Shown here one piece after another: positions 6,483 to 64,000 of a DNA stretch of 64,000 bases. Made by a program: the position numbers and the translations under genes. Origin of the DNA: Cordylochernes scorpioides (Eukaryota > Arthropoda > Arachnida > Pseudoscorpiones > Chernetidae); NCBI GenBank assembly GCA_030710605.1, contig CP092870.1, positions 12,419,408 to 12,483,407 of the forward strand. Reading direction: 5' to 3'. Below the pieces are notes generated by a model. It saw nothing but the letters and a program-made list of their open reading frames with translations. It was not told the origin of the DNA and ran no database searches. The stretch's first letter is position 1. The number at the start of each line of letters is the position of its first letter.

Positions 6483-6718
6483 GTACCACCACTTAAAACC
6501 TTGGAGATTTGATAATTTCAGTGATGTGGGATAGAGCTGTGTATAGCGACTGAGAGGAATGTGAAATGTGATCCTGACATGTGAGAGGTTGGCGTGAGTT
6601 TATTTGCACTTCCTCCCAGGCCTGGATCAGATGAGCCGCGGCCGGAAGCTTCTGAACAATGGGCAGCGAGTGCACGCACAACGTGCGCGGTCCCGACCTC
6701 CGCATTCCCTGTCCCCGC

Positions 6719-13559: not shown

Positions 13560-13635
13560 TGGTCCCTCAAGAGCCTGATTAGGATTTGAAACAGAAGAAA
13601 TTTAAGCAGAAACTCAGTGAGAATACAATTGCAAA

Positions 13636-16401: not shown

Positions 16402-16468
16402 GCATATTCCGAACGAAATCAAGGAAAGGTGGAATAATTTTAGAGCCGAATTACTAAAATTAGGGGAG

Positions 16469-18604
16469 TTGGGTATCCCAAGATACGTATGGGCATGTGA
16501 AGGGGATCGAGATGTTCAGCTCCACGGATTTTGTGACGCGTCAAGTGTAGCTTATTCGGCTGTGTGCTACTTGAGAACAGTCTCTCTGGATGGACAAGTC
16601 CATATATCAATGCTTGCAGCAAAAACCAGAGTTGCCCCATGTAAGTCTCTAACTCTACCAAGATTGGAATTGTGCGCTGCTCTCCTCCTGTCTCAGCTCT
16701 ACAGATCTGTTGTTGATTCATTGAAGATTGATATTGGCAGGACATATTTGTGGTCAGATTCTCAGATCTCATTGAGTTGGATCAAATCAGATCCTAGCAG
16801 ATGGAAGACCTTTATACACAATAGAGTTGTGAAAATACAGCAACTGTCTGATAGAAACTCATGGCGTCATGTGTCTGGGAAGGATAATCCCGCCGATTGT
16901 GCCTCTAGGGGAATAATGCCTGCTGCGTTATCTGGACATACACTGTGGTGGCAAGGACCGACTTGGTTGAAAGATAACCACTTTGTTCAGAATCAGGATA
17001 ATTGCTATGGCCGAGAATGCCATGAGGAAGAAAAAGTAGCCTTAGCTTGCCAGTCCCGAGTTTCAGTCTGTCCAGAGGTTGTAACAAAATATTCCACTTT
17101 TAACAAGACGAGGCGAATCATAGCCTGGTGTTTGAGATTCATCACTAATTGTCGGGTGTCGCTGAAGAAAAGAGAAATTGGAACATTATCAAAGAAGGAA
17201 TTAGAAAATGCAGTGATTAGGATTGTTGGATGGATTCAGGAGGACGAATTCGGAGAAGAAATGCAGGATCTAAGAAATACGGGACATGCTTCAAGAAAAA
17301 GTAGAATTTTGCAGCTTAATCCTTTTATAGATGCAACTGGGATGTTAAGAGTAGGAGGAAGGATTCAGTTCGCGAATGTAGGCCCTGATCAAAAATTCCC
17401 ACTGTTATTACCGAAAAATCATCACTTTACCAACTTAATAATACTTCATTTTCACACGAGATATTTGCATGCTGGTCCACAGCTGGTCTTATCTCTAATA
17501 AGAAATAGTTATTGGATCATGGGAGGTAGAGACATTGTAAGAAGAATCATTAAACAGTGTATAACCTGCTTCAGATTCAGGGCAAAAACTGCAGTACAAA
17601 TTATGGGGAATTTGCCTGCTGATAGAGTAAATCCATCAAGACCGTTTGCCAAGACTGGAGTCGATTTGGCAGGACCTTACGAACTAAAACCAAGTCTGAC
17701 TAGATCGAAGGGGACGATCAAATGCTATGTGATTCTCTTTGTGTGTTTTTCGGTCAAGGCAATTCATTTGGAAATGGTAACTAGTCTCTCGACCAGTTCA
17801 TTCATTGCAGCTCTCAGGAGGTTTATATCTCGTAGAGGAAAACCATCAAAAATTTACTCAGACAATGGAACGAACTTCAAAGGAACCGAAAGCTTCATGA
17901 AGAAACAATATAAAATTATGAATTCAAAGGAAACTAAAGACTTTTTAGCAGAAGAGTTTATAGAGTGGCATTTCATTCCTCCATCAGCTCCACACTTTGG
18001 AGGACTTTGGGAGGCAAACATCAAATGCTTAAAGGGTCATCTGAGCAAGGTAATAAAGTCATCACTTTTAAATAGTGAGGAATTCATCACACTACTCTGT
18101 CAAGTTGAGGCTTGCCTTAATTCAAGACCGTTAGTAGAATTAAGTCCCGACCCTAACGATCTTCGGGCTTTGACTCCGGGACATTTCTTGATTGGCTCCC
18201 CTCTGATTGAGGACCCAGGATTGCAAAATTATGAGCAAGGAGATTTGCGGTCAAGATGGAATCTGGTACAAAGTCTGAGGAACTCGTTCTGGTCAAGATG
18301 GACAAGAGAGTACATCAACTCTTTGCAACAGAGAAATAAATGGAGGTTGTCACAAGACAATTTGAAGCCTAATCAGTTAGTGCTAATAAAAGAAGATAAC
18401 CTTCCACCTCTAAAATGGCGTCTGGCCAGGATCCTCGAGGTATATCCGGGCTCTGACCAGAAGGTGCGAGTTGCCCAAGTTCGGGCTGCTACCGGAGTCT
18501 ACCTACGACCTATTACGAAGTTGGCTCCGCTTCCCTTCAAATCTGAACCAGGGTTCAGCGGCCGGGGGGAGTATGTTCCAGCCTTACATATGCAAAATTG
18601 TTGA
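16469..18604 (+). CDS. BEL/Pao polyprotein, RNase H-integrase part
   Basis: The frame is open from about 16385, upstream of the first ATG at 16469, so the coding segment continues the polyprotein after a frame change. It contains the RNase H-like region (HGFCDASSVAYSAVCYLR, LPRLELCAALLLSQL), an H-H-C-C zinc-binding region (LHFHTRYLHAG, CITCF), the integrase core with Asp (TGVDLAGPY), Asp (YSDNGTNFKG) and Glu (GGLWEANIK), and the BEL-type C-terminal domain (ALTPGHFLIGSPL). It ends 31 bases inside the 3' LTR. As a separate ORF it has no obvious translation start signal. Confidence 0.85.
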   Translation: MGIPRYVWACEGDRDVQLHGFCDASSVAYSAVCYLRTVSLDGQVHISMLAAKTRVAPCKSLTLPRLELCAALLLSQLYRSVVDSLKIDIGRTYLWSDSQISLSWIKSDPSRWKTFIHNRVVKIQQLSDRNSWRHVSGKDNPADCASRGIMPAALSGHTLWWQGPTWLKDNHFVQNQDNCYGRECHEEEKVALACQSRVSVCPEVVTKYSTFNKTRRIIAWCLRFITNCRVSLKKREIGTLSKKELENAVIRIVGWIQEDEFGEEMQDLRNTGHASRKSRILQLNPFIDATGMLRVGGRIQFANVGPDQKFPLLLPKNHHFTNLIILHFHTRYLHAGPQLVLSLIRNSYWIMGGRDIVRRIIKQCITCFRFRAKTAVQIMGNLPADRVNPSRPFAKTGVDLAGPYELKPSLTRSKGTIKCYVILFVCFSVKAIHLEMVTSLSTSSFIAALRRFISRRGKPSKIYSDNGTNFKGTESFMKKQYKIMNSKETKDFLAEEFIEWHFIPPSAPHFGGLWEANIKCLKGHLSKVIKSSLLNSEEFITLLCQVEACLNSRPLVELSPDPNDLRALTPGHFLIGSPLIEDPGLQNYEQGDLRSRWNLVQSLRNSFWSRWTREYINSLQQRNKWRLSQDNLKPNQLVLIKEDNLPPLKWRLARILEVYPGSDQKVRVAQVRAATGVYLRPITKLAPLPFKSEPGFSGRGEYVPALHMQNC

Positions 18605-18913
18605 AATTTACTTTTGTAATTATTGTTAAATTATGTAAATTTTAGACATGTATATAATCTTGATTTTTAGAAAATAAAAGCAGTTATTAAGTATACGTGG
18701 TTGAGTCATTAGAGTTGGTGAGACAAGAGTTATAAAAGGTATACGTGGTTGAGTCATTAGAGTTAGTAAGACGAGACAATAGCAGTTATTCAAGTTTAAA
18801 TGAGTTATAGTTAGCTCGCTGAGTTAAGAAGCATATAATTAAAACCAGCGTTAAAATAAGAACTTGGCGGTGATTCCTCCTTAGTGCCAGGAGGCCAAAG
18901 CCAGTTCGATTCA
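18574..18913 (+). repeat. BEL 3' LTR
   Basis: 340 bp, same length and sequence by eye as 13220-13559, preceded by the polypurine tract GGGGGGAG and followed by the target duplication GTTTC. Confidence 0.9.
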
Positions 18914-20975: not shown

Positions 20976-21862
20976 ACGGCGTGCAAGTACATATATACGT
21001 ATATATACGACGTGTAACCACATAAACGTATATATACGGCGTGTAAGCACATATACGGCGTGTAACCATATAAACGTATATATACGGCGTGTAAGCACAT
21101 ATACGACGTGTAACCACATAAGCGTATATATACGGCGTGTAAGCACATATACGACGTGTAACCACATAAACGTATATATACGACGTGTAACCACATAAAC
21201 GTATATATACGGCGTGTAAGCACATATACGGCGTGTAACCATATAAACGTATATATACGGCGTGTAAGCACATATACGACGTGTAACCACATAAGCGTAT
21301 ATATACGGCGTGTAAGCACATATACGACGTGTAACCACATAAGCGTATATATACGGCGTGTAAGCACATATACGGCGTGTAACCACATAAACGTATATAT
21401 ACGGCGTGTAAGCACATATACGGCGTGTAACCATATAAACGTATATATACGGCGTGTAAGCACATATACGACGTGTAACCACATAAGCGTATATATACGG
21501 CGTGTAAGCACATATACGACGTGTAACCACATAAGCGTATATATACGGCGTGTAAGCACATATACGGCGTGTAACCATATAAACGTATATATACGGCGTG
21601 TAAGCACATATACGGCGTGTAACCATATAAGCGTATATATACGGCGTGTAAGCACATATACGACGTGTAACCACATAAGCGTATATATACGGCGTGTAAG
21701 CACATATACGACGTGTAACCACATAAGCGTATATATACGGCGTGTAAGCACATATACGGCGTGTAACCATATAAACGTATATATACGGCGTGTAAGCACA
21801 TATATACGTACATATACGGCGTGTAACCACATAAACGTACATACACGACGTGTAAGTAAACT
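20976..21862. repeat. 48-bp minisatellite, about 18 units
   Basis: Units follow CGTGTAAGCACATATACGRC then GTGTAACCAYATAARCGTAT with a TATATACGG joint, 48 bases long. The minus strand is open in all three frames for about 300 codons, each frame translating to a 16-residue periodic peptide. Divisibility by three and absence of stop triplets in the unit explain this without any need for selection. Confidence 0.9.
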
Positions 21863-23610: not shown

Positions 23611-23867
23611 AAAACTATATGAATAGTTATTCTTCACTAAAATAAAACTAACAATGGAAGTAAAGAGGATTTAAGAGAAGAGGAAAACTATAAAAAAGCC
23701 CATTTCTACCTTCACGACAATGTATCCGCCGCATCGGCCATTTGGACCACTTTAATCGAACAATGCAAATTCACAATCATCAAATGCCCTCCTCCATTTT
23801 CTCCAAACCTAGCGACTATTAATTATTCGGAATTCTAAAAATATTTGAAAGGAAATAAATTTGATGT

Positions 23868-24433
23868 TGTTGTCGTGTCCAATGAAAAGCCTCAGATGTC
23901 TCCATGCATCTCTATCACAGCAGTTGCAATGTCCACTATCTTGGGTGTGTATACTGTATTGTTGTTGTTGTCGTGTCCAATGAAGAGCCTCAGATGTCTC
24001 CATGCATCTCTATCTAAGCAGTCGCAATTTCCACTATCTTGAGTGTGTATACTGTATTGTTGTTATTGTCGTGTCCAATGAAGACCCTCAGATGTCTCCA
24101 TGCATCTCTATCACAGCAGTCGCAATGTCCACTATCTTGAGTGTGTATAATGTATTGTTGTTGTTGTCGTGTCCAATGAAGACCCTCAGATGTCTCCATG
24201 CATCTCTATCACAGCAGTCGCAATGTCCACTATCTTGAGTGTGTATACTGTATTGTTGTTGTTGTTGTGTCCAATGAAGAGCCTCAGATGTCTCCATGCA
24301 TCTCTATCTAAGCAGTCGCAATGTCCACTATCTTGAGTGTGTATACTGTATTGTTGTTGTTGTCGTGTCCAATGAAGAGCCTCAGATGTCTCCATGCATC
24401 TCTATCACAGCAGTCGCAATGTCCACTTTCTTG
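23868..24433. repeat. 98-bp tandem repeat, about six copies
   Basis: Unit: GTTGTTGTTGTCGTGTCCAA, then TGAAGAGCCTCAGATGTCTC, CATGCATCTCTATCACAGCA, GTCGCAATGTCCACTATCTT, GAGTGTGTATACTGTATT. Copies differ mainly at GAGCC/GACCC and CACAGCAG/TAAGCAG. The 98-base period is not a multiple of three, so the short frames across it are artefacts. Confidence 0.9.
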
Positions 24434-41181: not shown

Positions 41182-41818
41182 TATTTCTCAATTTCAGCAT
41201 ATGTACCGCCGAATGTGCTCTATAACAATTTCAGCATATGTACCGCCGAATGTGCTCAATAACAACCACAGCATATGTACCGCCGAATGTGCTCTATAAC
41301 AATTTCAGCATATGTACCGTCGAATGTGCTCTATAACAATTTCAACATATGTACCGCCGAATGTGCTCTATAACAATTTCAACATATGTACCGCCGAAAG
41401 TGCTCTATAACAATGTCAGCATATGTACCGCCGAATGTGCAGTATAACAATGTCAGCATATGTACCGCCGAATGTGCTCTATAACAATTTCAGCATATGT
41501 ACCGCCGAATGTGCTCTATAACAATGTCAGCATATGTACCGCCGAATGTGCTCTATAACAATGTCAGCATATGTACCGCCGAATGTGCTCTATAACAATG
41601 TCAGCATATGTATGGCCGAATGTGCTGTATAACAATGTCAGCCGATTTACCGCCGAATGTGCTCTATAACAATGTCAGCATATGTACCGCCGAATGTGCA
41701 GTATAACAATGTCAGCATATGTACCGCCGAATGTGCTCTATAACAATTTCAGCATATGTACCGCCGAATGTGCTCTATAACAATTTCAGCATATGTACCG
41801 CCGAATGTGCTCTATAAC
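41182..41818. repeat. 37-bp satellite derived from the U6 snRNA 5' stem-loop
   Basis: About 17 units of CTATAACAATTTCAGCATAT plus GTACCGCCGAATGTGCT. On the minus strand each unit reads GCACATTCGGCGGTACATAT then GCTGAAATTG, which lines up with the 5' stem-loop and following bases of the local U6 copies (CTTGTTCGGCGGTACATATA at 603-622). Units vary at TTTCAG/TGTCAG and CTCTA/CAGTA. The array begins about 60 bases upstream of the chosen start codon of the 38.5-kb gene. Confidence 0.8.
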
Positions 41819-42544
41819 ACAAGAACTGATCAACCACACCCACACTTACCAAGCTCCCGTGCACGGTATTTCTGAAAGGTTGTTTCAACAATACAAAACT
41901 ACTCGTATATGCAGAACTATCGCTGATAAAGCGGCATTCTCTAATTACTATTTGAAAAAGGAAGATCAAACAATTTAAAAATTAAAATGACAAAACTTTG
42001 AAACAATAGATACCTCTATCTATCGGAACAGACATGAACCAGCGAACAAATAGAAAGCATTAACAGAAAAACTTTTCCTATATATTTATACGTCAAAAAA
42101 GAGCATTCAAAAAACCTATACCTTTTAGAATTTAAAAATATATAAATTTTATGTTTCGGGAGAAGAGATAGATAATGGTGATGTCAATATTTGCAAAGTT
42201 TGATTGCATGCTATTCTGTAGAGGAGATGGTGTTCTAGCATATATTTAGTACATTCAGCCATAATACAGAAGTTTGGAATAGTAGAAGGTTGTTGTTCTT
42301 TGCCAAACCAGATGGGCTATATTGCTGCATTAGCGTCATGAAATATCCAAAGATGTTTTTCCACTTTGGACTTGTCAGGTTTGTGCTTTCCTCCTCATGC
42401 AATCTTTGTAGATAGGATGTATTGGTTGTTTTACCTTATACTATCTACATAAATTGAGGCAGTTTCTGAGTACTTAACAATATAGACATCTCTGTAATCC
42501 TATAATATCATCAACAATATAAAATTCTACTGTCCTAAAAGCTT
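41819..42544. other. No gene recognised
   Basis: AT-rich DNA with no recognised repeat or coding frame. Confidence 0.4.
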
Positions 42545-49955: not shown

Positions 49956-50079
49956 TGTTTTAATGTCCATCCATACAGAGAGCAAAACAACAACTGACTC
50001 ACCCGTGCAGGCAAGGTCACGCTCCGCTGCGTCACGTGGGAAAACATAGGTACATGTTTTCTTACATGTTCTCAGCACA
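49956..50079 (-). repeat. Gypsy 3' LTR
   Basis: 124 bp. On the minus strand TGTGCTGAGAACATG...ATTAAAACA. Identical by eye to 52987-53110. Confidence 0.9.
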
Positions 50080-50139
50080 TCCCCCTTTTTAAGACTTGAA
50101 ATATATATATACATTACAAACTTTAAATGCATAATATAA

Positions 50140-52065
50140 TTAATAACGAAGGAGATCCACAGGTTTAACAATTCGTCCACTCCGGGTTCTTATCTGGCCG
50201 TCTTCTGAGTCGTTAGAGGGATAATCCACAACTGGGGTCTTTTCATTTTCAACCAGTTCCTCCCCCGAAAAGGTCGGCGTCGATGGGTCGGCTGGATATT
50301 GCACTGTAACTCCTTTTCGTAGATGGAACCTGTTTCGACGTAAAGTCCCAACTGGAGTATCAACTATATATGACCTTGGTGTCGATGCCTTCTGCTTTAC
50401 AATCCCACAGGTTCGCATATCTGTAATCCAAACCGTGTCACCTTCGGATAGCTCCTCCATGTCCGTAGCTCCGCAGCGTCGATCATACCTGGATTTCATA
50501 TCCTTTCTCCTTCTCCCCTCCTTTCTTTTCAGGGTCTGAGAGTCCACCAACTTTGGATTAAGATTCTCTGGCGCAATTGGCAAGGTCGTTCGGAGTTTAC
50601 GTCCCATGAGAAGCTCAGCAGGGCTGTAACCGTTCTCCAAAGGGGTCGATCGATACTCCAGGAGTCCAAGCGATGGGTCTTGATTTTTCTTGAGGATCAA
50701 CTTAGCAATTTTCACACCTGCTTCTGCCATCCCATTGCTCTGCGGGAATCGAGGACTTGAAGTGACATGTGTGAATCCGTACTGCCTTGCGAAATTTGCA
50801 AATTCACGAGCAGCTCCAAATTGCGTCCCATTATCGCTTACAACAGTTTCTGGTATTCCATGTCGGGCAAATATGGATTTGCAACTACGCACCACCACAC
50901 TGGCTGTGAGCCGATCCAGCTGAATCATTTCAGGAAAGCGAGAATAATAGTCAATGACGACTAGATACCACTTATTCTCGAACTTGAACAAATCCATTCC
51001 AATCTTTTGCCACGGTCGTGTAGGAAAGTTGGTTGGTATCAAAGGTTCATGTTTTGAGACGGCTTCCTGGATACAGACACTGCACTTTCTGACCGTTTCC
51101 GCGATCTCCTCCGAAATTCCAGGCCACCATACCGTCTCACGTGCGCGAAGTCTTGTTTTTGTAATCCCGAAGTGCCCAGCGTGCAACTTCTCTAGGATCT
51201 CCAGTTTCATACTTGCTGGAATAACAAGACGACAGCTACGCATCAGTAGTCCATTTTGAACGCCGAGTTCATCCTTGACATGCCAATAAGAGAGCAGAGC
51301 CTGTGACATCTTCTTCTTATCTGGCCAGCCTTGCTCAAGGTAGTTGACTACTGCTTTCAGGGTCGTATCTTCTTGTTGAGCTTCAAAATTCTTCGTCAAC
51401 ATCTCGTCTTTGTCGGTTATACTCGAGAGAACTGCATTTATATGCGCCGAGGTTGGCCGTTCGTCTTCACCTCCCTCGGTTGTAAGAAGTGGTTGTCTGG
51501 ATAATGCATCGGCGTCGAGCAGCTCCTTTCCAGGGATGTCCAATCTTGTTTTGAGCTTTTCCATCAAAGGTATTGGTACCCGTCGAGGAGTATGCACAGC
51601 ATATGGTTTTGCTCCAGGTTTCAATTTGATTTCGTAAGGGTTTCCGATCTGTCCCAGTCCTTCAAATACTTCGGGAAATTCCTTGATCGGGTTAATTCTC
51701 GTCGCAACCACTTCAATCCGCCTTGCCAGGTTCAAGAGCTCACATGCCCGACGACTCAGAAGAGGTTCACTCAAACGACGAATGACATAAATCTTCTCCT
51801 TGATTTCATAATTGCCATTTCGCAGCGTTGATATAAACATACCCACAGTCTGAAGTTCGGAGAATTCAGCAGCTCTAATGTTGATATCACTTTCCACTAG
51901 TCGTTGTTGTCCCATTATCTTCCTGAAGAGACACAGAGGAACACATGTAACATCCGCCTGGGAGTCGAGCTTGAACTTCAGCTGTTTCCCGTTCATTTGG
52001 ATTTCTGCTGTCCATCGCCTCCTGCACTCGCCTTCATCATCATCGAGATTAGATGAATCCTCCAC
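50140..52065 (-). CDS. Gypsy pol with protease and integrase but no RT/RNase H
   Basis: 641 codons; the listed start is GTG, and the frame is open a little further upstream, overlapping the gag end in the -1 frame, so expression by frameshifting is likely. Residues 30-110 are a retropepsin-like domain, but the active site reads DSQA (34-37) instead of DSGA. The start of the RT region (KPYAVHTPRRVPIPLMEKLK, to about 173) is followed directly at about 176 by the segment that normally ends RNase H (LLDADALSR). The integrase is complete: H295, H298, C328, C331, then D358, D411 and E448, and a C-terminal chromodomain-less tail. The stop is close to the 3' LTR. Confidence 0.88.
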   Translation of the reverse strand: MEDSSNLDDDEGECRRRWTAEIQMNGKQLKFKLDSQADVTCVPLCLFRKIMGQQRLVESDINIRAAEFSELQTVGMFISTLRNGNYEIKEKIYVIRRLSEPLLSRRACELLNLARRIEVVATRINPIKEFPEVFEGLGQIGNPYEIKLKPGAKPYAVHTPRRVPIPLMEKLKTRLDIPGKELLDADALSRQPLLTTEGGEDERPTSAHINAVLSSITDKDEMLTKNFEAQQEDTTLKAVVNYLEQGWPDKKKMSQALLSYWHVKDELGVQNGLLMRSCRLVIPASMKLEILEKLHAGHFGITKTRLRARETVWWPGISEEIAETVRKCSVCIQEAVSKHEPLIPTNFPTRPWQKIGMDLFKFENKWYLVVIDYYSRFPEMIQLDRLTASVVVRSCKSIFARHGIPETVVSDNGTQFGAAREFANFARQYGFTHVTSSPRFPQSNGMAEAGVKIAKLILKKNQDPSLGLLEYRSTPLENGYSPAELLMGRKLRTTLPIAPENLNPKLVDSQTLKRKEGRRRKDMKSRYDRRCGATDMEELSEGDTVWITDMRTCGIVKQKASTPRSYIVDTPVGTLRRNRFHLRKGVTVQYPADPSTPTFSGEELVENEKTPVVDYPSNDSEDGQIRTRSGRIVKPVDLLRY

Positions 52066-52904
52066 AGCTGAGACCTCCAGGAGAAAACCAATTTTTCTTC
52101 ATCAAGTTCAGAAACAGCTTTGACTTCCGCAGTCTTCGCCTGCTTATCTGGGCAGCAATTTGCAAAATGGCCTGTTTTTGAACACAGGTAACATCTTTGT
52201 CCTTCAGCACGGCAAGCCTGTCCTTCCCTGTGGGTGAAACCTCTGCACTTTGGACATCGTGATCTTGTTTTGGCTGACTTCTCCTTCTTCCTCGAAGGCT
52301 GCTGTTGTTGTTTCGGTGATTGTTTCTTCGAGTTAAACTTCACCTGATTCACCTTTTGGCTTGTTGAGGGACGCTGCAGGTCGACTTGCTGCTGTCGAAC
52401 GGCTTCCTGCTGTCGAACCATTTTCACCGCCTTTTCCAAAGTCAGTTCGCTGTCCAACTGCATTCTTTCAGATAAAGCTTTGTCCCTCACTCCAACCACT
52501 ATTCGGTCACGGATCAACTGCTCATGAAGACCCTCAAATTCGCAACTATCAGCCAATTTGTACAATGAAGTGATGAATTCGTCCACTGGCTCCCGATCCT
52601 CTTGGATTCTTGAATTAAATTTCGCACGTTCGTAGATAATATTCTTTCTGACACAGAAGTGGCTGTCGAACGCCTTGAGGACGGAATCAAATTTTGTTGC
52701 CTCTTCCTCCTTTTCGAACTTGAAGGCCCTGAATATATCATCCGCGCGGTCACCCATCAAGTACATGAACAAATCGATCTTGTCCGCCTCCTCTTTCTTC
52801 TTCATTCCACTGACCACGAGGTATCGTTCGAATCTTTTCCTCCATTTGGGCCATTCGTTGGGAGTCGAGAAGTCGAAAGTTTCTGGAGGTTGAATCTGAG
52901 CCAT
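51993..52904 (-). CDS. Gypsy gag
   Basis: 303 residues from ATG 52904 (MAQIQPPETFDFSTPNEWPK), about 80 bases inside the 5' LTR. Capsid-like helical region (20-180), a basic Gln/Lys-rich linker (about 190-225), and two Cys/His knuckles, CPKCRGFTHREGQAC and CYLCSKTGHFANCC (CCHC), for RNA packaging. It overlaps pol by more than 70 bases in a different frame. The frame is intact, consistent with the identical LTRs. Confidence 0.88.
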   Translation of the reverse strand: MAQIQPPETFDFSTPNEWPKWRKRFERYLVVSGMKKKEEADKIDLFMYLMGDRADDIFRAFKFEKEEEATKFDSVLKAFDSHFCVRKNIIYERAKFNSRIQEDREPVDEFITSLYKLADSCEFEGLHEQLIRDRIVVGVRDKALSERMQLDSELTLEKAVKMVRQQEAVRQQQVDLQRPSTSQKVNQVKFNSKKQSPKQQQQPSRKKEKSAKTRSRCPKCRGFTHREGQACRAEGQRCYLCSKTGHFANCCPDKQAKTAEVKAVSELDEEKLVFSWRSQLWRIHLISMMMKASAGGDGQQKSK

Positions 52905-52986
52905 GTTGAATTATCTTCCAAGGTACGCAAAAATCGATATTTTGCAATATACGGGTTCGTATTTTATCCAGTTATCGCTGCCACCA

Positions 52987-53110
52987 TGTTTTAATGTCCA
53001 TCCATACAGAGAGCAAAACAACAACTGACTCACCCGTGCAGGCAAGGTCACGCTCCGCTGCGTCACGTGGGAAAACATAGGTACATGTTTTCTTACATGT
53101 TCTCAGCACA
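52987..53110 (-). repeat. Gypsy 5' LTR
   Basis: 124 bp, followed on the minus strand by the primer-binding site TGGTGGCAGCGATAACTGG. Confidence 0.9.
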
Positions 53111-53577
53111 TTATCAATAGTAATTTTTCTATCAGCAACAGTTAAATCGCGTACCTGCCCAATATTGCGATCCGTTGTTGACGTCATGGCCGACCTGACC
53201 TTGAATCATCTGCGATGCTCTAACGGCCATCTTTAAAACGTTTATACCAGAAATAAACTTGCGTTCGTGACAATTTTTTATCTTCATAAGCTTCATTTAT
53301 TAATTCTAATGTCTCTGTGAAACACTTTTTAATTTTACACAGAATTTAATATTTGGCCTTTGCTCAAATGATGACATTGCAGAAACCGACGCGAGCTAAA
53401 TACTTACAACAAAAATATGCCTAAAATGAAAACTACGCATGCGCATTTACTGGCGTTGCTAAATTAAATTTTAGGCTTTGTTCTTTACAGTAAAATTGAT
53501 TTTACATTTTTCAAAAGTTGTTTTATATTTATATTTTAAAGTTAGGGAACTTTCTGATCTCCTACGGTGTATATATG

Positions 53578-53728
53578 TGTTGTATTTTGAATTTTAATTT
53601 AACATAACTGCAGCTTATTAATTTAAACAAATTTATTATTCAAATACAAGGAGAGGTTAAACAAACAAATTAACTTAACAAATGAAGAAAAAAGTTGAGC
53701 TTCTATATTCTAAGCTATTACTACAACA
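53578..53728 (-). repeat. Copia 3' LTR
   Basis: 151 bp; aligns to 58428-58586 except for an indel near the GTGTGTGTGAAT stretch and a few substitutions. Confidence 0.85.
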
Positions 53729-54095
53729 TAAACAAAACAAACTTAGTCAAAAAGGAACATATTTGGCATCACAGATTATTTTAAATTGATTTGTTTACCA
53801 ATTTCAACAACTCCCCCCTTTGGTGAGCAAATCAAAATTAGGTCCAAAAAGAAGTCCCATATTTACAAGCAGTCTCTGAATTCTGTCTCCCGGCAGCCTC
53901 TTGGTGAGAAGATCCGCTTCTTGAGCTTCTGAGTTTACGAAGAAGATCCTTAAATTTCCCTTTGAGACTTCATCTTTCACGAAGAAATATATTTCTGTTA
54001 ATGTGCTTGGTTCTACAATGATGAGTTGTTCCTTTAATCCAGTCTATTGATGATTTACTGTCTGTCTTCAGAACAAGTGGTATTTCAGCACATGA

Positions 54096-55790
54096 TTAAT
54101 GACCTATTTCAGAAAGAAAGTTCATAAACCATTTTAACTCTTTAGTGCCCTCACAGATAGCCATTAATTCCGCTTCGCATGTTAACAGGGCTACCAGTGG
54201 TTGTTTTTGAGATTTCCAACTAAGTAGTGAAGATCCTAATTTAGTTAAATATCCAGAAAAAAATGTTGAGTCTTTAGTTGAGGACCAACTAGCATCTGTA
54301 AAGACTTCAATTTTCCCTCTTATTCTGTCAAAGCATAACTTGTAGCTTTTTGTTCCCATCAAGTATTTATATATTGTTTTAAGTGCAGTAAGGTGAATGA
54401 CTTTGGGATCCTTGCTGTATTGGGAGAGTTGACTAACATAAAATGTTATATCGGGCCTTGTTCCCACTGATAAATACATCAAGGAACCTATCATTTCTTG
54501 GTAAAGTTTAGGGTCCACAGGAGAAGAATCTGGGTGATTATCCAGATCTTGATTAAGATCACCAGGGGTTTTTACTGGATTACATTCTTCAAGGTTAAAT
54601 TTCTTCAAAATCTTTTCTACATAGGCTTCTTGTGAAAGTTCGAAACAATTTTCTTTTTCCTCAATATTGATTCCAAGAAAAAATATAGGCTTTTCTTTTC
54701 GAACAATGACAATTTGCTTATCCAATTGCTTAACTATTCTGTTAATTATGGTACTATCCGATCCAATAATGAGAAAATCATTTACATAAATCCCAATTAT
54801 TAGAGTTTTCTCCTCTTCTCTCTTGAAGGATGTATGCACATGGTTCACTTTCTAAACATCTGAGTCCAATATCATTAAAAATTTGGTTAATTTTTCATTC
54901 CAGCATCTTCCGGATTGTGGTAAACCATATAAACTTCTGTTTAGTTTACACACTTTATTTTTCTGTCCTGCTTGAACAAATCCTTCAGGTTGTTCCAGGT
55001 ACACATCGTCTTTTAGTTCCGCATTGAGATAGGCAGTTTTAACATCATATTGTTCAATTTTCATGTTTTGTTGTGATGCAATGGCAATCAATGTTCTTAA
55101 AGAGTCCAGCTTCATCACAGGAGCAAAAGATTCTTCATAGTCAACGCCAGGTTTTTGATTATGCCCCATTGCAACAAATCTAGCCTTTCTTTTGTCAATG
55201 CTTCCATCTGGATTCATTTTTATATTAAAAATCCATTTTCCTTTTATCAGGTTTTCATTTTCTGGTTTGGGTACAAGGGTCCATACATTATGTGAAGTTA
55301 GGGAATGGAATTCCTCTTCCATTGCTTCTTTCCATTGGTCTGAAAATGGGGTGTTCATGGCTTCTCGATATGTTTTAGGTATGTTCATGGAAGTTGAAGA
55401 TAGTTCGGTTACATTGGCTGCGTTTCTTTCTTTTATTCTTTCAGATCGTCTTACACCACTTGCTCTCAGCCTTTCTTCCTGCTCTTGTAGATTGATGAGA
55501 TGCTTTGCCTGAATATCTTCATTAGTTCTTCCTGCAATACGTCCGGGTTTTCGGGGTAATCCAGATGATTCAGGTATTGGTTCAGGGTTGTCTGGAGTAT
55601 TTAGTTCTTCTGGAGTAGAGCCCATGGTATGTGTAATTTGAAAGAAATCTGATTCATGTTGTTCATCTCTATAGATAATATGATCTTGGACATGTTGGTC
55701 AAAACATTAGAAGTCAAGAGATCAGAGCCTTTTGAATTTTCATCAAATTTGACAGTTTGAACTTCGTGTATTTTTCCATCTTGTGGATCA
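54096..55790 (-). pseudogene. Copia RT-RNase H, frameshifted
   Basis: The RT part is open from 55625 to 54852 (NVWTLVPKPENENLIKGKWI, then YDVKTAYLNAELKDDVYLEQ with the first catalytic Asp, and YGLPQSGRCWNEKL). It shifts frame near 54880 and again before the second frame (54848-54096). The catalytic pair reads YVND in place of YVDD. The remainder carries MIGSLMYLSVGTRPDI and the RNase H region (EVFTDASWSS, then TCEAELMAICEGTKEL). Sequence upstream of 55625 links to the integrase part across the Helitron. Confidence 0.82.
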
Positions 55791-55792
55791 TA

Positions 55793-56180
55793 TTATATAT
55801 ACAGTTACGAGCGTCTTTCCGAATCAAGCGGTCATCCGTCAGCCGACTCTGTCACCGTTTGCTTTTATTGGTTGGCTCCCGTCACGCCACCTTTGCTCCC
55901 CCCCCCCCCCCCCCTGCCGGCGGCTCGCGCCCGTTGGCTGCCGGCGAGCACGTGACTTCCCTGTGCGCGCGCATGGCGGTCGGTAGGCTATTCTATATAC
56001 AGTTACGAGCGTCTTTCCTACGGAAGCCAACAGTACATAGGCAGATAAAGCACATAGGCTATAGTTATTAACTAATATATGCATTTATATAAGGCGCCAA
56101 TTTATAATTGTAACAAATAGTATTTGAATAAAAACATTCAATCGGGTAAAACACGGGCGTTGCCCGGGTCATTCGGCTAG
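55793..56180 (+). mobile_element. Helitron-like element inside Copia
   Basis: 3' end ACACGGGCGTTGCCCGGGT hairpin, CATTCGGCTAG, then T at 56181. The 5' end TTATATATACAGTTACGAGC follows A at 55792. Removing it joins Copia codons across an A/T junction without gain or loss of bases. A second copy of the 5' end lies at about 55993. Between them is a GC-rich, CpG-rich segment with a run of C (55895-55985). It lacks the tRNA-Gly block of other copies. Confidence 0.8.
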
Positions 56181-56181
56181 T

Positions 56182-57400
56182 ATTCTATAAGCTTTTCTTT
56201 GTCTGGAGTAACCGGTGAATATTCCTTTTCTTGCTCTAGAGTCAAATTTATTTCTTTGATTTTTAGGAATGTAATAGTAGGCAAGACTTCCAAAGATTTT
56301 TAAATGTGCTACTGATGGTTTGTGTCCAGTCCATTTCTTTATGGGAGTTTTCATGTTATCGTTCTTGGCCGGTGTGCAATTCTTCAAATAAGCGGCTGTT
56401 GCAATGGCTTCCGCCCAAAACTCAGTTGGTAACTTAACATCAAACAACATAGTTCTAGCCCAATCTAGAAGGGTGCGATTGGTTCGTTCTGCAATTCCGT
56501 TGCTTTGTGGTGAATATGGAACTGTTCTTTGATGGTGTATTCCTTCATTTCTGAAAATCTCATGAAATTTTTTATTTGCAAATTCGGTTCCGTTGTCCGA
56601 TCTAACATTTTTGATTTTAACATTAGTTTCATTTTCTCGATGATTTTTAAATTCTAAAAAAAAATCAAATGCATCCTCCTTTGATTTCAAGAAGTATACA
56701 AAGATACGTCTACTATACGAATCCACAATAACGTACAGGTATTTTGCACCACCCAGTGATTTGGTTGGCATAGGACCACATAGATCCATGTGTATAAGTT
56801 CTAATGGCCTTTCAGAATGATTATTCTCTATAGCTTTGAAAGGGTTTTGGGTTAGTTTACCAAGGATACATGGTTCACATTTCTCGAGATGTTGACAATC
56901 AAAATTAAGTCCTTTTACCATATTATTCTTCATCATTTTATCCAAATATTCTTCGTTCAAGTGTCCTAGTCTTCTATGCCACATTGTCTTGGCTGAACAT
57001 TTATCTTCTGCTTTTAAACAATTATCTTTAGTGCTTAACAAATTTCTAGGTAAAGTTTTAATTATAAACATTCTATCTTCCTCATTAGCCTCAGCTATCA
57101 AATCTCCTTTGCAGTTATAAATTTTAGCTATTCCTTTCTCAAAATATACTTTATTTCCATTATTAACCAGACATCTGACAGAAAGAAGATTAGATTTAAG
57201 TCTAGGCACATAGAGTACATCCTTAATAAAAATATCTTGCTTACCTTCACTTGTGCATGTAGACAATTTCACATCACCTTGTGCTTCAGCTTTTATGAAC
57301 CTTTCTTCTTCTGCAAGGTTAATTTCACTGTCAATAGGAACCTTGTTGATAAGCCAATCTTCTCTAGGAGACATGTGTGAAGTGCCCCCTGAATCAAGGT
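56182..57400 (-). pseudogene. Copia protease-integrase
   Basis: The frame is open from above ATG 57374; the aspartic protease motif LDSGGTSHM lies just upstream of that ATG in the same frame. It continues with the zinc-binding region (MWHRRLGHLNEEYLDKMMKN, CEPCILGK) and the integrase core: D in HMDLCGPM, D in VRSDNGTEF, E in NGIAERTNRT, then SVAHLKIFGSLAYYYIP. A one-base change near 57425 puts gag in another frame, and the Helitron cuts the 3' end. Confidence 0.82.
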
Positions 57401-58330
57401 TCCAAATGTGTGCATCCTCCTCTCAGGTAGATGTGAAGAAGAGTAGATTATTTCCGCTGAAGTAAACGCATGTTCAGTGTTAGCAGAACCATTCGCTACA
57501 TTAGCATGTTCCCTTGAGTTATTTTTCCAAGATGATGAAGACTTAGTTTGCATATTATTTTGTGGATATTTGCCTTTTGGTTTATTGAAGTTCGCTTTAT
57601 CTTGACGATGCCAACAGTTTCTTGACATGTGCCCAAATTTTCCGCATGTATGACATTTCCCTTCAAATTTGCATGTTATTTGTATCCCTCGGTCATTTCG
57701 AGCTTTAAAAGCTTTTTCATATTGACCTTCTTTAGGAAATCCCATTGAGTTTAGCCTCATTTCTTCCTCTTGAAGTGCCTGGAAAACTTCCTCGAGACTC
57801 GCAAATCGTTGTGGTCGTAAAACCGCTGCTATATTTTCAAACTTTGGCAACAAACCTCTCACTACATGATACACCATTTCCCTTGGTGAAATAGGCTGTC
57901 CCAAGTTAGCACTTCTGGATGCAATATTTCTGGCCCTTGTTATGTAGGCTTCAATGCCTTCATTATTTCTCATTTGAATATTTTTCAATTCAAGTCCAAT
58001 GTCGATTATTTTATCTTCAATATTTCCAGTATGGATACGCTTCAGTTCATCCCACACAGTTTTAGCATTTGTCTCTCCTATAAATATGCCAGCCTGCTCA
58101 GGTGACAAATTTACTATTATTATTCCAAACGCCTCATCATTTTTATCCTCCCATTCTTTGAAAAATTCTTCTTCCTTTGAATCTGCCATTCCACGGTTAG
58201 GCTTAGGCGATTCGATCACTTTTTTGAACAATTTTTTGCTTCTCAAAATTGCTGATATTTTAAGCGCCCATATGTGGTAAATTGAAGATGTCAGTGGCTC
58301 AATTCTATTCATCGAAAAATATTCTGCCAT
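57293..58330 (-). CDS. Copia gag
   Basis: ATG 58330; about 300 residues are gag: an N-terminal UBN2-type helical region (IYHIWALKISAILRSKKLFK, VWDELKRIHTG, MVYHVVRGLLPKF) and one CCHC knuckle (CHTCGKFGHMSRNC). After about residue 303 the sequence runs out of frame into the protease region because of the indel near 57425, so the last ~40 codons are not native. Gag forms the particle around the element RNA. Confidence 0.8.
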   Translation of the reverse strand: MAEYFSMNRIEPLTSSIYHIWALKISAILRSKKLFKKVIESPKPNRGMADSKEEEFFKEWEDKNDEAFGIIIVNLSPEQAGIFIGETNAKTVWDELKRIHTGNIEDKIIDIGLELKNIQMRNNEGIEAYITRARNIASRSANLGQPISPREMVYHVVRGLLPKFENIAAVLRPQRFASLEEVFQALQEEEMRLNSMGFPKEGQYEKAFKARNDRGIQITCKFEGKCHTCGKFGHMSRNCWHRQDKANFNKPKGKYPQNNMQTKSSSSWKNNSREHANVANGSANTEHAFTSAEIIYSSSHLPERRMHTFGTLIQGALHTCLLEKIGLSTRFLLTVKLTLQKKKGS

Positions 58331-58427
58331 TTTTAAAATATATATATAATCGTACTCAACCTTTCTTTAAAAAAATCGGCTGTTTTCTTCTGACGCAATA
58401 ACAATTAACCAGGCTTCTGCTACCAGT

Positions 58428-58586
58428 TGTTGTATTTTGAATTTTAATTTAACATAACTGCAGCTTATTAATTTAAACAAATTTATTATTCAAATACAAG
58501 GAGAGGTTAAACAAACTAATTAACTTAACAAATGTGTGTGTGAATAAAAAAGTTGAGCTTCTATATTCTAAGCTATTACTACAACA
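58428..58586 (-). repeat. Copia 5' LTR
   Basis: 159 bp, flanked on the internal side by the initiator tRNA-Met-type primer site. Confidence 0.85.
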
Positions 58587-58660
58587 TACACTTTTTTGTT
58601 TTTAATATATATGCACATAAGTATATATTGAAAATAGAGCAATCCATAAATAAATCTTTA

Positions 58661-58738: not shown

Positions 58739-58955
58739 GATAACCGTTCCTCCTTCAGTACATTGGACCGTGTAGAGATACCAACATTGATACCCGTTCC
58801 TCCTACAGTACATTGGACCGTGTAGAAATGCCAACATTGATAGCCGTTCCTCCTACAGTACATTGGGCCGTGTAGAGATACCAACATTGATAGCCGTTCC
58901 TCCTACAGTACATTGGGCCGTGTAGAAATACCAACATTGATAACCGTTCCTCCTA
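58739..58955. repeat. 50-bp tandem repeat, about four copies
   Basis: Unit GATARCCGTTCCTCCTACAG, TACATTGGRCCGTGTAGARA, TACCAACATT. It begins exactly at the broken end of a foldback arm, so the array may have grown from the element's loop. Confidence 0.85.
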
Positions 58956-59362: not shown

Positions 59363-60201
59363 CAAAGCAATAACACGCCATCTATATATAGAAAATGAAA
59401 TCATTCAAGCATGAATGTTTTTTTATACACAAAAAAAATACTCCTACTACCCTTACTGTGATGATAAATATATTGGGAGGGCTCAACTCACATCAGTGGT
59501 GAACCCTTCCAGCGGTTTTGCGTATTAAATCTACTAGACCGCTTCCTAGAGTTCTAATACTGTATTCGACGAATCTGCTTATATATGCCTCACTGCCTAA
59601 CTGGCCTTTTTTTTTTAATTGTTTGCGGCGATGCATTGTTCGTTGCAAATATTTATATTTAATTTCACTGTTCTAAAAGCTTTTGGCAATAGTTTTCTTA
59701 AATACCATTTCTGAGATTCCACCCTTCAGTACAGCATATACACGGTAGGATCAAAAAGTTCCCGAACATTTAAAAAATAAAAAATAAAACAACTTTTGAA
59801 AAATGTAAAATCTATTTTACTGTAAATAACAAAGCCTAAACTATAATTTAATTTAGCAACTCCAGTAAACGCGCATGCGTAGTTTTCATTTTAGGCATAT
59901 TTTTGTTATAAGTATTTAGCTCGCGTCGGTTTCTGCAATGTCATCATTTGAGCAAAGGGCTAATATTAAATTTTGTGTAAAATATAAAAGGTCTTTCACA
60001 GAGACATTAGCATTAATGAATGAAGCTTATGAAGACGAAAAATTGTCGCGAACGCAATTTCTGGTATAAACGTTTTAAAGATGGCCGTAAGAGCATCGCA
60101 GATGATTCAAGGTCAGGTCGGCCAGGACGTCTACAACGGATCGCAATATTGGGCAGGTACGCGATTTAACTGTTGCTGATAGAAAAATTACTATTGATAA
60201 A

Positions 60202-60403
60202 TGTTAGGATTTTACAAGTTGTTTTATCATAGATTTATATATTTATATTTGACCAGATGACCGGACGACTTTACATGTATATATTTGGTTTTAATGATGT
60301 AAATTGGTTAGTCATGATAGGTAATTAAAAGTGTTGATTTTCTGAGAGGTGTAGTGTTTTACTCTGCTCGATTGGTAGACTAGGAAAGAATTGGTTCCTA
60401 ACA
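60202..60403 (+). repeat. 5' LTR of the minisatellite element
   Basis: 202 bp, TGTTAGGATTTTAC...GGTTCCTAACA, with an 8-bp terminal inverted repeat. Confidence 0.88.
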
Positions 60404-60429
60404 GGTTATGGGCCCAGCACGCTTCCACT

Positions 60430-60944
60430 GCGCCGAAGAAAGTAATTAGTTTAGCCAAAGAAGGTCAAGAAGAAAAAGCTGAAGTTTAAGCTAAAGAAGA
60501 AACAGCTGAAGTTAAAGCTGAAGGGAAAGCCAAAGAAGAAAAGTTTGTTAGGCTAACTAAGATAGAGAATAGAATTTGATTATAAGAAATTTGAGTGATT
60601 TAAAGACTGAACTTTGTGCAACGAAGAAGAAAAGCTTTGAGTTATAATTTTTTGTCAGATTTGCATAACTAGAAAAGCTAAGAAGGTAAAGAAGAAAAAG
60701 CTGAAGTTAAAGCTAAGAAAGTAAAGAAGTGAAGCTAAAGTTTGAAAAGGTAGAGTTTAAAGAAGTGAAGGTAAAGTGTGAAGAAGTAGTGTTTGAGGAG
60801 GTGAAGATAGGGTTTGAAGAAGTAGTGTTTGAAGAAGTGATGGTGAGGTTTGAATGAGAATAAGTAGAAAGTTTAAAGAAGAAGAAGAAGAAAATATTTG
60901 AGTTATAATTTTTTGTCAGATTTGCATAACTAGAAAAATCAATA
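60430..60944 (+). other. Purine-rich leader region of the LTR element
   Basis: Repeated AAAGAAGAAAAAGCTGAAGT-type words suggest a decayed Lys/Glu/Ala-repeat coding segment, but frames are short. ATTTTTTGTCAGATTTGCAT with AACTAGAAAA occurs twice (about 60647 and 60909), marking an internal duplication. Confidence 0.5.
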
Positions 60945-62033
60945 GCTGTAGATGGTTGATGAAGGTTATGCCTACAGCTGGTTGGAGATAGCTATAGATG
61001 TTTGAAGAAGGTTATGCCTATAGCTGGTTGGAGATAGCTATAGATGTTTGATGAAGGTTATGACTACAGCTGGTTGGAGATAGCTATAGATGTTTGAAGA
61101 AGGTTATTCGTACAGCTGGTTGGAGATAGCTGTAGATGTTTGAAGAAGGTTATGCCTATAGCTGGTTGGAGATAGCTATAGATGTTTGATGAAGGTTATG
61201 ACTACAGCTGGTTGGAGATAGCTATAGATGTTTGATGAAGGTTATGCCTACAGCTGGTTGGAGATAGCTATAGATGTTTGAAGAAGGTTATGCCTATAGC
61301 TGGTTGGAGATAGCTATAGATGTTTGAAGAAGGTTATGCCTATAGCTGGTTGGAGATAGCTATAGATGTTTGATGAAGGTTATGACTACAGCTGGTTGGA
61401 GATAGCTATAGATGTTTGAAGAAGGTTATTCGTATAGCTGGTTGGAGATAGCTGTAGATGGTTGAAGAAGGTTATGCCTACAGCTGGTTGGAGATAGCTG
61501 TAGATGTTTGAAGAAGGTTATGCCTATAGCTGGTTGGAGATAGCTATAGATGTTTGATGAAGGTTATGACTACAGCTGGTTGGAGATAGCTATAGATGTT
61601 TGAAGAAGGTTATGCCTATAGCTGGTTGGAGATAGCTATAGATGTTTGATGAAGGTTATGCCTACAGCTGGTTGGAGATAGCTATAGATGTTTGAAGAAG
61701 GTTATGCCTATAGCTGGTTGGAGATAGCTATAGATGTTTGAAGAAGGTTATGCCTATAGCTGGTTGGAGATAGCTATAGATGTTTGATGAAGGTTATGCC
61801 TACAGCTGGTTGGAGATGGCTATAGATGGTTGAAGAAGGTTATTCCTATAGCTGGTTGGAGATAGCTGTAGATGGTTGATGAAGGTTATGCCTACAGCTG
61901 GTTGGAGATAGCTGTAGATGGTTGATTAAGGTTATGCCTACAGCTGGTTGGAGATGGCTATAGATGGTTGAAGAAGGTTATTCCTATAGCTGGTTGGAGA
62001 TGGCTATAGATGGTTGAAGAAGGTTATTCCTAT
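60945..62033 (+). repeat. 46-bp minisatellite inside the LTR element
   Basis: About 24 units of GCTGGTTGGAGATAGCTATA, GATGTTTGAAGAAGGTTATG, CCTATA with TATA/TGTA, GATGAAGG/GAAGAAGG and CCTATA/ACTACA variants. Variant order repeats, indicating multi-unit duplications. Confidence 0.9.
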
Positions 62034-62590
62034 AGCCGATTGGAGAATACCACGACCGATGGGAGAATACCACGGCCGATGGGAGAACATCACGACCGAT
62101 GGGAGAATACCACGGCCGATGGGAGAACATCACGACCGATGGGAGAATACCATGGCCGATGGGAGAATACCACAGCCGATGGGAGTATACCACGACCGAT
62201 GGGAGAATACCACGGCCGATGGGAGAACATCACGACCGATGGGAGAATACCATGGCCGATGGGAGAATACCACAGCCGATGGGAGAACATCACGACCGAT
62301 GGGAGAATACCATGGCCGATGGAAGAATACCACAGCCGATGGGAGAACATCACGACCAATGGGAGAATACCATGGCCGATGGGAGAATACCACAGCCGAT
62401 GGGAGAATACCACGACCGATGGGAGAATACCATGGCCGATGGGACAGTGCCACAGCCGATGGGAGAACATCACGACCGATAGGAGAATACCACGACCGAT
62501 GGGAGAATACCACGGCCGATGGGAGAATACCACAGCCGATGGGAGAATACCACGACCGATGGGAGAATACCACGGCCGATGGGAGAATAC
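62034..62590 (+). repeat. 20-bp minisatellite inside the LTR element
   Basis: About 28 units of CGATGGGAGAATACCACGGC with GAACATCAC, CATGGC and CACAGC variants. Higher-order blocks of 40-120 bases recur. The first unit grows directly out of the last 46-bp unit (CTATAGCCGATTGGAG). Open frames across it reflect few stops in the unit, not a protein. Confidence 0.9.
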
Positions 62591-62789
62591 GAAGAACTGA
62601 GGAGAGAAGACGAAGAGGAAGGCCAGAATGAAAATATAATCCCAAGGGGGTCTTCAAGAGTTGCGGCTTGGCGGAGGGAGTGTTGCAGATATTCTAACTG
62701 GGGGAATTGGAGGAATTAAACTGACCGGGATCTTGGCCACTATAGGCCTCCGATGAGGGTATGAAAACAACTTTAAAATGGGGGGGCAT

Positions 62790-62991
62790 TGTTAGGATTT
62801 TACAAGTTGTTTTATCATAGATTTATATATTTATATTTGACCAGATGACCGGACGACTTTACATGTATATATTTGGTTTTAATGATGTAAATTGGTTAGT
62901 CATGATAGGTAATTAAAAGTGTTGATTTTCTGAGAGGTGTAGTGTTTTACTCTGCTCGATTGGTAGACTAGGAAAGAATTGGTTCCTAACA
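62790..62991 (+). repeat. 3' LTR of the minisatellite element
   Basis: 202 bp, identical by eye to 60202-60403. Confidence 0.88.
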
Positions 62992-64000
62992 ATAAAATAT
63001 CAGAAATACTTGGAATTTCGTATGGTAGTTGCCAAAAAATTATTGGTGAACATTTAAACATGAAAAAACTGTGGTTATTTTGTCCCACGAAATTTAACAG
63101 ATCAAAAAAGAGAAACCAGATTATCAATTTGCAAAGATTTAATTGAAACTGAAAATAATGATTCTGATTTTTTTTAAACAATAATAACTGGTGATGAAAC
63201 TTGGTGCTTTCTTTATGATCCACAAACCAAAAAACAACCACTCGAATGGCACACACCAAGTTCTCCTAGGAAGAAGAAAGTTTGTCTTGACAAGTCCAAA
63301 GGATATGTAATGTTCGTAGTGTTTTTAGATTATGAAGGACTTGTCTATTATGAATTTATTAAAGAGGTGGTTACTATTAATAAACAGGCATACAAAGAAA
63401 TACTTGTGCGCCTTCGTGATGCGATAACAAGAAAAGAAACCATCTCTTTAAATTAAAACAGTGGAAATTGCTACATGATAATGCCCCTGCTCATAGAGCC
63501 ATTATTGTTCAAGGCTATTTAGCCAAACACTCTGTATCTGTCTTGCCGCATCCTCCTTACTCTCCTGCTATCGCCCCATGTGATTTCTTCATCTTTCCAA
63601 AACTTAAAATGACGTTTAAAAGGAGGCACTTTTCATCGTCACAGAAGTAATTGAAAATACGACGGGGTGGAGCTAAACAAGCTTAGAAAAATTGACTTTG
63701 AACTAGCATTTCCACAGCTTTTTTCACGCTGGAAAAAATGTGTAGATAACCAAGGCTCCTATTTTGAAAAATTTGATGCTAAAATTAATATACTATGAAT
63801 GAATAATTAATTTTTAAAAGTTCGGAAACTTTTTGATCTTACCTTGTAAAAACAGAATGATCCAATACAGTGTAGTAGAACTCCAATAAGCGGTCTGGTA
63901 GATTAAATTGGTGAAACCGCTGGAAGGGTTCACCCTTGTTGAGCCAAGCCCTCCCAATATATTTTCATCTCAGTAAGGGCAGTAGAAGTATGTTTTATGT

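Follow-up and report, generated by a model that had tools for sequence, protein, structure and literature searches.

The window analysed here is a 64,000-nucleotide stretch of contig CP092870.1 of the pseudoscorpion Cordylochernes scorpioides, and its positions 60202-62991 are confirmed as a recent Ty1/copia-type insertion, in which two long terminal repeats (LTRs) enclose an interior made up largely of two joined minisatellites. We searched the genome assembly (2.62 Gb in 24 contigs, denoted C; fetched loci are denoted L) and found a family of such insertions together with coding relatives that have lost reverse transcriptase (RT) and RNaseH. The insertion is laid out as follows.

60197-60201, no strand: target-site duplication ATAAA, 5' copy, read from the sequence
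60202-60403, plus strand: 5' LTR of 202 bp, TGTTAGG...CCTAACA, identical to 62790-62991, with 41 genomic matches
60404-60434, plus strand: primer-binding site, 31 nt, complement of the 5' half of initiator-Met tRNA
60435-60941, plus strand: purine-rich leader, the family's 5' untranslated region, with internal repeats of its own; it stops where gag starts in the coding relatives
60942-62046, plus strand: 46-bp minisatellite, 24.0 units (Tandem Repeats Finder, TRF; unit maps)
62035-62590, plus strand: 20-bp minisatellite, 27.8 units (TRF; genome matches)
62591-62682, plus strand: remnant of the integrase-RT coding linker (alignment with L051, L070 and L068)
62683-62690, plus strand: RT-RNaseH deletion junction with the short common motif TTGCAGAT, its 3' side matching the RNaseH end in the alignment
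62780-62786, plus strand: run of seven G, probable polypurine tract, then CAT (counts of the G-run/LTR junction)
62790-62991, plus strand: 3' LTR, 202 bp
62992-62996, no strand: target-site duplication ATAAA, 3' copy, read from the sequence

The LTRs of this copy are 100% identical over 202 bp, have the TG...CA ends of Ty1/copia elements and are flanked by the short duplication; the whole element measures 2790 bp and its interior 2386 bp. Directly 3' of the 5' LTR lies the primer site, whose 31 nt are perfectly complementary to a tRNA stretch with 82 exact matches in the genome. ARAGORN called tRNA-Met with anticodon CAT in two of the three loci fetched from those 82. Priming by half of an initiator-Met tRNA occurs in Drosophila copia, and the site is the sole one of its kind in the window (at most one mismatch in 13 nt). 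The seven-G run lies three bases (CAT) upstream of the 3' LTR, and a similar G run is found at other 3' ends of the family. The leader, 538 bp with the primer site included, contains 54-bp copies spaced 261 bp apart and 36-bp units, and is followed by the start of gag in L062, L061 and L063. Behind it the 46-bp array (93% matches by TRF) and the 20-bp array (84% matches) abut with a 12-base overlap, jointly covering 1649 of the 2386 interior bases, and a tail of 199 bp follows. The flanks were recognised by eye as two halves of a degenerate mariner-like transposase; when the insert is removed and one ATAAA kept, a reading frame crosses the join.

A sequence-only reading of this stretch had described identical 202-bp LTRs, a 5-bp target duplication, a Copia-type primer site, a purine tract and about 1.65 kb of joined arrays, and each part of this anatomy is borne out, the purine tract as a probable one. 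Its statement that the element has no genes is correct for the window copy and fails for the family, which includes Gag-protease-integrase (Gag-PR-IN) and Gag-PR members. Over 62010-62657 the 20-bp array is open in three frames, two of them forward (196 and 205 aa) and the third reverse (175 aa), which is what a unit lacking stops there would give whether translated or not.

Dispersal and variation of the arrays

Genome searches scored the best candidates only, so the counts from them are lower bounds. The LTR gave 41 matches (best 40 of 1754 first-look candidates scored). An exact 20-base pattern across the LTR-primer junction occurs 450 times, with none for the reversed control, and a 16-base pattern across the G-run/LTR junction 415 times, with one for its control. 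The LTRs are thus not confined to this place; such confinement was one of the two outcomes that the sequence-only reading had named as counting against it. We tabulated 37 elements, namely the fetched loci and the window copy, with total lengths of 1144-6528 bp and LTRs of 197-218 bp. They represent at most 34 independent insertions, because four are segmental copies of one insertion. A perfect 5-bp target-site duplication is present in 30 of the 37, and the LTR pair is free of substitutions in 21, five of these with small gaps, as expected of the recent mobility that had been proposed. The seven elements lacking a perfect duplication are both L040 rows, which are a tandem recombinant, L011, which is an ambiguous TG repeat, L012, L020, the first element of L037, and L043. 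At L040 (C9:25061500-25067500) an array element and a Gag-PR element stand in tandem with the middle LTR common to both.

The 46-bp unit was found at places of which 39 were scored among 106 first-look candidates (61 matches merged by position). All 39 adjoin parts of the family: 27 were read with an LTR on both sides, for two (L030, L037) a family LTR was read on a single side, three (L065-L067) are tied to the family by a fetched 5' flank with leader, and the remaining seven by leader, tail, LTR or junction matches nearby. The L030 array on C20 showed no family parts at its 3' end within the 0.6 kb read (L064). For the 20-bp unit the best 40 of 98 candidates were scored, and flanking LTRs were checked for part of them. 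In the copies that were mapped, L026 and L015 have no 46-bp units or about one and L030 has the most, 86; the number of 20-bp units varies between 0 and 38. The longest arrays among scored places reach about 3.9 kb (46-bp) and 2.7 kb (20-bp); a 2.7-kb array of about 137 20-bp units on C7 is enclosed by leader plus LTR at one end and tail plus LTR at the other, together with an AATAT duplication. The family thus disperses variable minisatellite arrays, and each insertion plants a minisatellite locus. The predicted copies with the same LTRs and differing unit number are therefore real and many (450 LTR-primer junctions; 46-bp arrays from none to 86 units). The further suggestion that such elements seed satellite DNA was supported as far as dispersal and no further: long arrays independent of the element, as satellite DNA would have, were not seen among the 39 scored 46-bp places.

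Individual arrays differ in composition as well as in length. The 630 full 46-bp units of the tabulated elements comprise 124 distinct types, 82 of them restricted to one element each. Units differ on average at 3.57 positions within elements vs 4.03 between them (29 elements), which shows weak homogenisation. An uninterrupted run of nine unit types is common to the window copy and L011; in 20 shuffles of unit order within elements, the longest common run over all pairs was five or fewer. Some arrays are therefore related by descent, with blocks gained or lost, and most other pairs of elements have only short runs in common.

Change on the chromosome can be read from L031, L032, L044 and L045, which lie within about 0.08 Mb on C13 and all carry the target-site duplication TTTAT. 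Their flanks are 97.7-99.6% identical (longest aligned pieces) and their 5' LTRs are without substitutions. The 20-bp arrays are constant at 18.1-18.2 units, and the 46-bp arrays have 29.5, 18.5, 17.5 and 17.3 units, the longest differing by reiteration of a four-type block of units. Provided that the assembly is correct, the changes in array length arose after insertion. Segmental duplicates provided the same kind of test for DNA-level change of the variable number of tandem repeats (VNTR) region reported in gibbon LAVA elements (PMC4432496). Offset self-matches of the C13 flanks (C13:86.7-86.8 Mb) show a tandem repeat of about 64 bp that contains or adjoins the insertion.

Array lengths were read from the assembly, and the length differences could in principle be artefacts of assembly collapse or expansion. 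We consider this very improbable: the assembly places 2.62 Gb in 24 contigs, insertions at separate sites, each with its own duplication and flanks, differ in the order of units and not in length alone, and private unit types are common (82 of 124).

Coding relatives and the loss of reverse transcriptase

The Gag-PR-IN and Gag-PR members have the same LTR, leader and tail as the array copies. The L018 frame matches Gag, CCHC zinc knuckles, Pol_BBD, rve and SH3, with no RVT; L019 has the rve and SH3 domains. Likeness to L018 identifies the same frame in L050 and L051, where its reported open lengths are 868 and 879 aa and it continues into the tail and 3' LTR without any RT; L052 has the same end with a broken frame. 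L017 encodes Gag, CCHC zinc knuckles and Pol_BBD without integrase, and L025, L037 and the second element of L040 are 97-98% alike to it in the Gag-PR region. Open frames stay at or below 933 aa in the 138 integrase matches listed, whereas at Copia RT matches in the genome they reach 1352. Two chimeras pass from Gag-IN into the 46-bp array, L018 with 62 units and L029 with 75; their junctions differ, and the L029 frame is broken. They thereby link the array form with the Gag-PR-IN form.

To survey element sizes, we paired 100 listed of the 450 5' junctions with 95 of the 415 3' junctions (C1, C2 and part of C3). Pairs were obtained for 78 of the 95, giving 78 elements and leaving 17 unpaired; entries of 7316 and 10458 bp are probably mis-pairs. 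Classes were assigned by size and by array or integrase matches, few elements having been read. On this basis, 22 elements have interiors of 2030-2110 bp, the size of the Gag-PR copy L017 (2 of 22 with an integrase match), and 17 have interiors of 2848-2976 bp (13 of 17 with an integrase match). The 17 array-marked elements are scattered over 1045-2594 bp.

Members with RT exist as well. In L068 (interior 4353 bp, read in part) the integrase linker is followed by similarity to the RT and RNaseH of the intact Copia L053, spread over several frames. L070 is a second RT-bearing copy, with RT and linker in different frames. The family thus has a Copia-type gag (Retrotran_gag_2 in the coding relatives) and an integrase placed before RT. 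Of 150 listed places found with 163 aa of L068 RNaseH, 35 match at 77-100% and the other 115 at 51% or less. No single full-length frame was reported for the 35: their longest open frames measure 771 aa (with two TGA), 585 and 560, against 1328-1330 aa in other Copia families. When tails were aligned, the window copy, L051, L019, L018 and L020 (5/5) all joined the linker to the RNaseH end at the same point. By this alignment, the array form has its RT loss in common with the Gag-PR-IN form. The Gag-PR copy L017 has a different deletion that keeps the start of RT, and RT was therefore lost at least twice.

We compared eight coding copies pairwise for the ratio of non-synonymous to synonymous change (dN/dS); the pairs are not independent, and only L018, L050 and L051 reach into integrase. 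For L052 the comparison covered the longest frame (418 aa) and for L019 the part before a nested insertion, in both cases Gag-PR only. Among L050, L051, L052 and L019 dN/dS was 0.10-0.18 at dS 0.08-0.19, and L018 vs L050 gave 0.05 (56 synonymous and 13 non-synonymous differences). Comparisons among L017, L025 and L037, the Gag-PR copies, gave 0.43-0.61 at dS 0.03-0.04. Part of the Gag-PR-IN constraint should post-date the loss of RT, because L051 and L019 carry the RT deletion and L050 and L052 have the same protein end. Recombination with RT-bearing masters could mimic such post-loss constraint.

Proposed mechanism and its alternatives

The explanation we favour, and consider likely as a whole, is that an RT-deleted Copia family gave rise to array-filled copies that are moved in trans and disperse variable minisatellites. 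It builds on direct observations: the anatomy, the dispersal, the variation in unit number, the common RT deletion, the chimeras and the change on the chromosome. A Ty1/copia-type family would have lost RT-RNaseH by one internal deletion, leaving a Gag-protease-integrase element. In its descendants the coding region, from about the start of gag to the integrase-RT linker, would have been replaced by the 46-bp and 20-bp minisatellites, while the parts needed in cis were kept: LTRs, initiator-Met tRNA primer site, leader, G-run primer and 3' LTR. Array copies would be transcribed and packaged with the Gag, protease and integrase of coding relatives, take RT from another source, and insert with 5-bp duplications. 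Since no protein required for movement is encoded by the array copies, they would move in trans, as the sequence-only reading had proposed. Besides changing in the chromosome, if the assembly is right, array length would probably change by strand transfer between units or co-packaged RNAs during reverse transcription, as suggested by the two Gag-IN/array chimeras, which differ in their junctions, and by the unit maps.

Several points weigh against this explanation. Packaging in trans is something we infer rather than observe. The 35 same-family RT places have no reported full-length frame and the intact-frame Copia families are only distantly alike; moreover, pol of the RT-bearing form may be read in two frames through a programmed frameshift. 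The two repeat units, too, were not traced to a source. We aligned doubled units locally to pieces of L062, L051 and L017 on both strands, with 200 mononucleotide shuffles each. No origin of the 20-bp unit was found in these pieces, its best match being reached by 15 of 200 shuffles, and for the 46-bp unit one of six comparisons gave a weak match, scoring 19 against a shuffle maximum of 18, to the purine-rich leader of L017.

As a source of RT, the sequence-only reading had looked to an autonomous Copia with the same LTR or primer site. The close coding relatives do not serve as one: those fetched are without RT-RNaseH, and the 35 RT-bearing matches are without a single full-length frame. A possible donor is the Copia family of L053. 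Its open frame is long, and its presumed LTR, delimited by eye in a single copy, measures 192 bp. This LTR matches that of the window copy at 114 of 187 columns (61%), a score above 500 of 500 dinucleotide shuffles. At L055, a related sequence ends in CAACA, and bases 1-27 of the window copy's primer site come next, within a short palindrome; this is the one locus in which the primer site of an intact-frame Copia family was seen. The integrases of L018 and L053 are 40.5% identical, and in RNaseH the intact-frame Copia families are 45-51% alike to the present family. An intact-frame Copia with the primer site and a weakly similar LTR thus exists; these likenesses make use of L053-family RT by the array family possible but are no proof of it. 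L055 also has two opposed Copia RT matches near the palindrome of LTR end and primer site, a trace that could stem from self-primed or dimeric cDNA. We rejected the Copia at 53578-58591 as the partner of the window element; the window has no other matching primer site.

Alternatively, the helper may be a working RT-bearing member of the same family, whether missed, present on another haplotype or expressing pol from two frames, so that nothing is borrowed. Such members exist, recent array copies with identical LTRs require a working RT, the search scored best candidates only, and on C6 and C7 integrase frames of about 870-880 aa lie upstream of RNaseH matches. Set against this are the gap between the 35 family places and all others at 51% or less, a longest frame of 771 aa (two TGA) and a next of 585 vs 1328-1330 in other Copia families, and the several frames of L068. 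We regard a same-family helper as a serious contender that falls a little short of an even chance. Somewhat less probable, in our judgement, is a more far-reaching reading: that an RT-less lineage persists as a separate mobile family, with Gag-PR-IN under purifying selection, RT drawn from a different Copia family and array members riding on both. This would be an LTR counterpart of the ape SVA elements, a three-party community that creates, recombines and spreads arrays.

The minisatellites might also be older genomic arrays, captured by template switching or insertion and not born inside the element. Neither unit is clearly derived from the family's coding form, as capture would have it; against capture, no free 46-bp array was seen, all 39 places scored of 106 candidates adjoining the family. 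We think capture rather unlikely.

A separate matter is whether the arrays do anything. They may be inert filler with no effect on mobility or packaging, movement being due to the ends alone, and to this we give about an even chance. Copies with proper ends hold anything from none to about 86 units, and the sense strand of the arrays folds only modestly better than shuffles (z -1.9 and -2.3). Rfam returned nothing above its cut-off, the one match, to SNORD94, being at chance level (17.4 bits vs a cut-off of 60). Neighbouring units show no excess pairing: a covarying hairpin across unit boundaries was rejected, with pairing of its two variable arm positions at 0.560 vs a shuffled mean of 0.581 (905 of 1000 shuffles reach 0.560). 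These two positions do go together within one unit (0.736), which linkage alone can give. Against the filler view stand the strong antisense fold of the 46-bp array (z -6.5) and the effect of the VNTR on mobilisation in ape SVA and LAVA (PMC4432496).

Related systems, other window elements and significance

TR-GAG and other partly coding, non-autonomous LTR elements have Gag-bearing, RT-lacking copies; the present family also retains the protease region, plus integrase in one class. The plant Tat elements Ogre, GmOgre/Gmr9 and Retand resemble it as LTR retrotransposons that carry and disperse polymorphic short tandem arrays; these lie downstream of gag-pol and are described as a source of satellites (PMC7004042, PMC3305785, PMC11963269). 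Some Retand copies are non-autonomous, and soybean monomers reach 149 repeats per locus (PMC3305785, PMC11963269, PMC7004042). Tat elements, however, are Ty3/gypsy elements with arrays added beside gag-pol, between pol and the 3' LTR, whereas the present family has Copia domains and a Copia primer site, and its coding region is replaced. Ape SVA and LAVA elements are likewise non-autonomous, moved in trans and built around a central VNTR with ordered unit types (PMC4432496). They are LINE-1-driven non-LTR elements, whereas the LTRs, tRNA primer site and 5-bp duplications found here point, from structure only, to integrase-type insertion. The present family combines Tat-like LTR machinery with an SVA/LAVA-like VNTR in place of the coding region.

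Terminal-repeat retrotransposons in miniature (TRIMs), including the ant PbTRIM, are also small and non-autonomous, with LTRs of about 100-350 bp and no genes, but measure less than 1000 bp (PMC3532108). The window copy has 2790 bp, and array copies (1.1-6.5 kb) are mostly arrays in a family with coding members. Large retrotransposon derivatives (LARDs) have LTRs of about 4.4 kb (PMC3532108), compared with 197-218 bp here. Animal mobile elements with tandem arrays include oyster Helentrons with satellite-like arrays (PMC7492417) and Tetris of Drosophila virilis (PMC4079207), but the former are rolling-circle elements and the latter a foldback DNA transposon, neither being an LTR retrotransposon. 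Among the open-licence papers listed by our searches, none was seen to describe an animal LTR element in which minisatellites stand in for the coding region, which is no proof of absence. The scattering of variable arrays by retroelements is best known from plants.

The window holds other mobile elements and repeats. At 49956-53111 lies a second RT-less LTR element, of gypsy type, with identical 125-bp LTRs, a target duplication read as TATC, or as TTATC should the LTR end in CA, a gag-like frame of 303 aa below the Pfam cut-off and a frame of 641 aa with Integrase_H2C2 and rve and no RT match. The Copia at 53578-58591 is degenerate and on the minus strand, with LTR-like repeats 93% alike; immediately beyond its 5' end is a tandem array of 50-bp units (58739-58955). 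A BEL/Pao element occupies 13220-18913; its 340-bp LTRs are identical, GTTTC stands at either side, and its two long frames measure 921 and 711 aa. Further minisatellites occupy 6717-7869 (60 bp), 21003-21855 (48 bp), 23861-24433 (98 bp) and 41189-41819 (37 bp).

How dispersed minisatellites and satellites start is an open question on which this family bears. Its many recent insertions, each with its own array and flanks, let array birth, transfer and change on the chromosome be separated, and the four segmental duplicates of one insertion provide a built-in control. The RT-less Gag-PR-IN class raises the further question of whether a retroelement lineage can evolve for long without a polymerase of its own.

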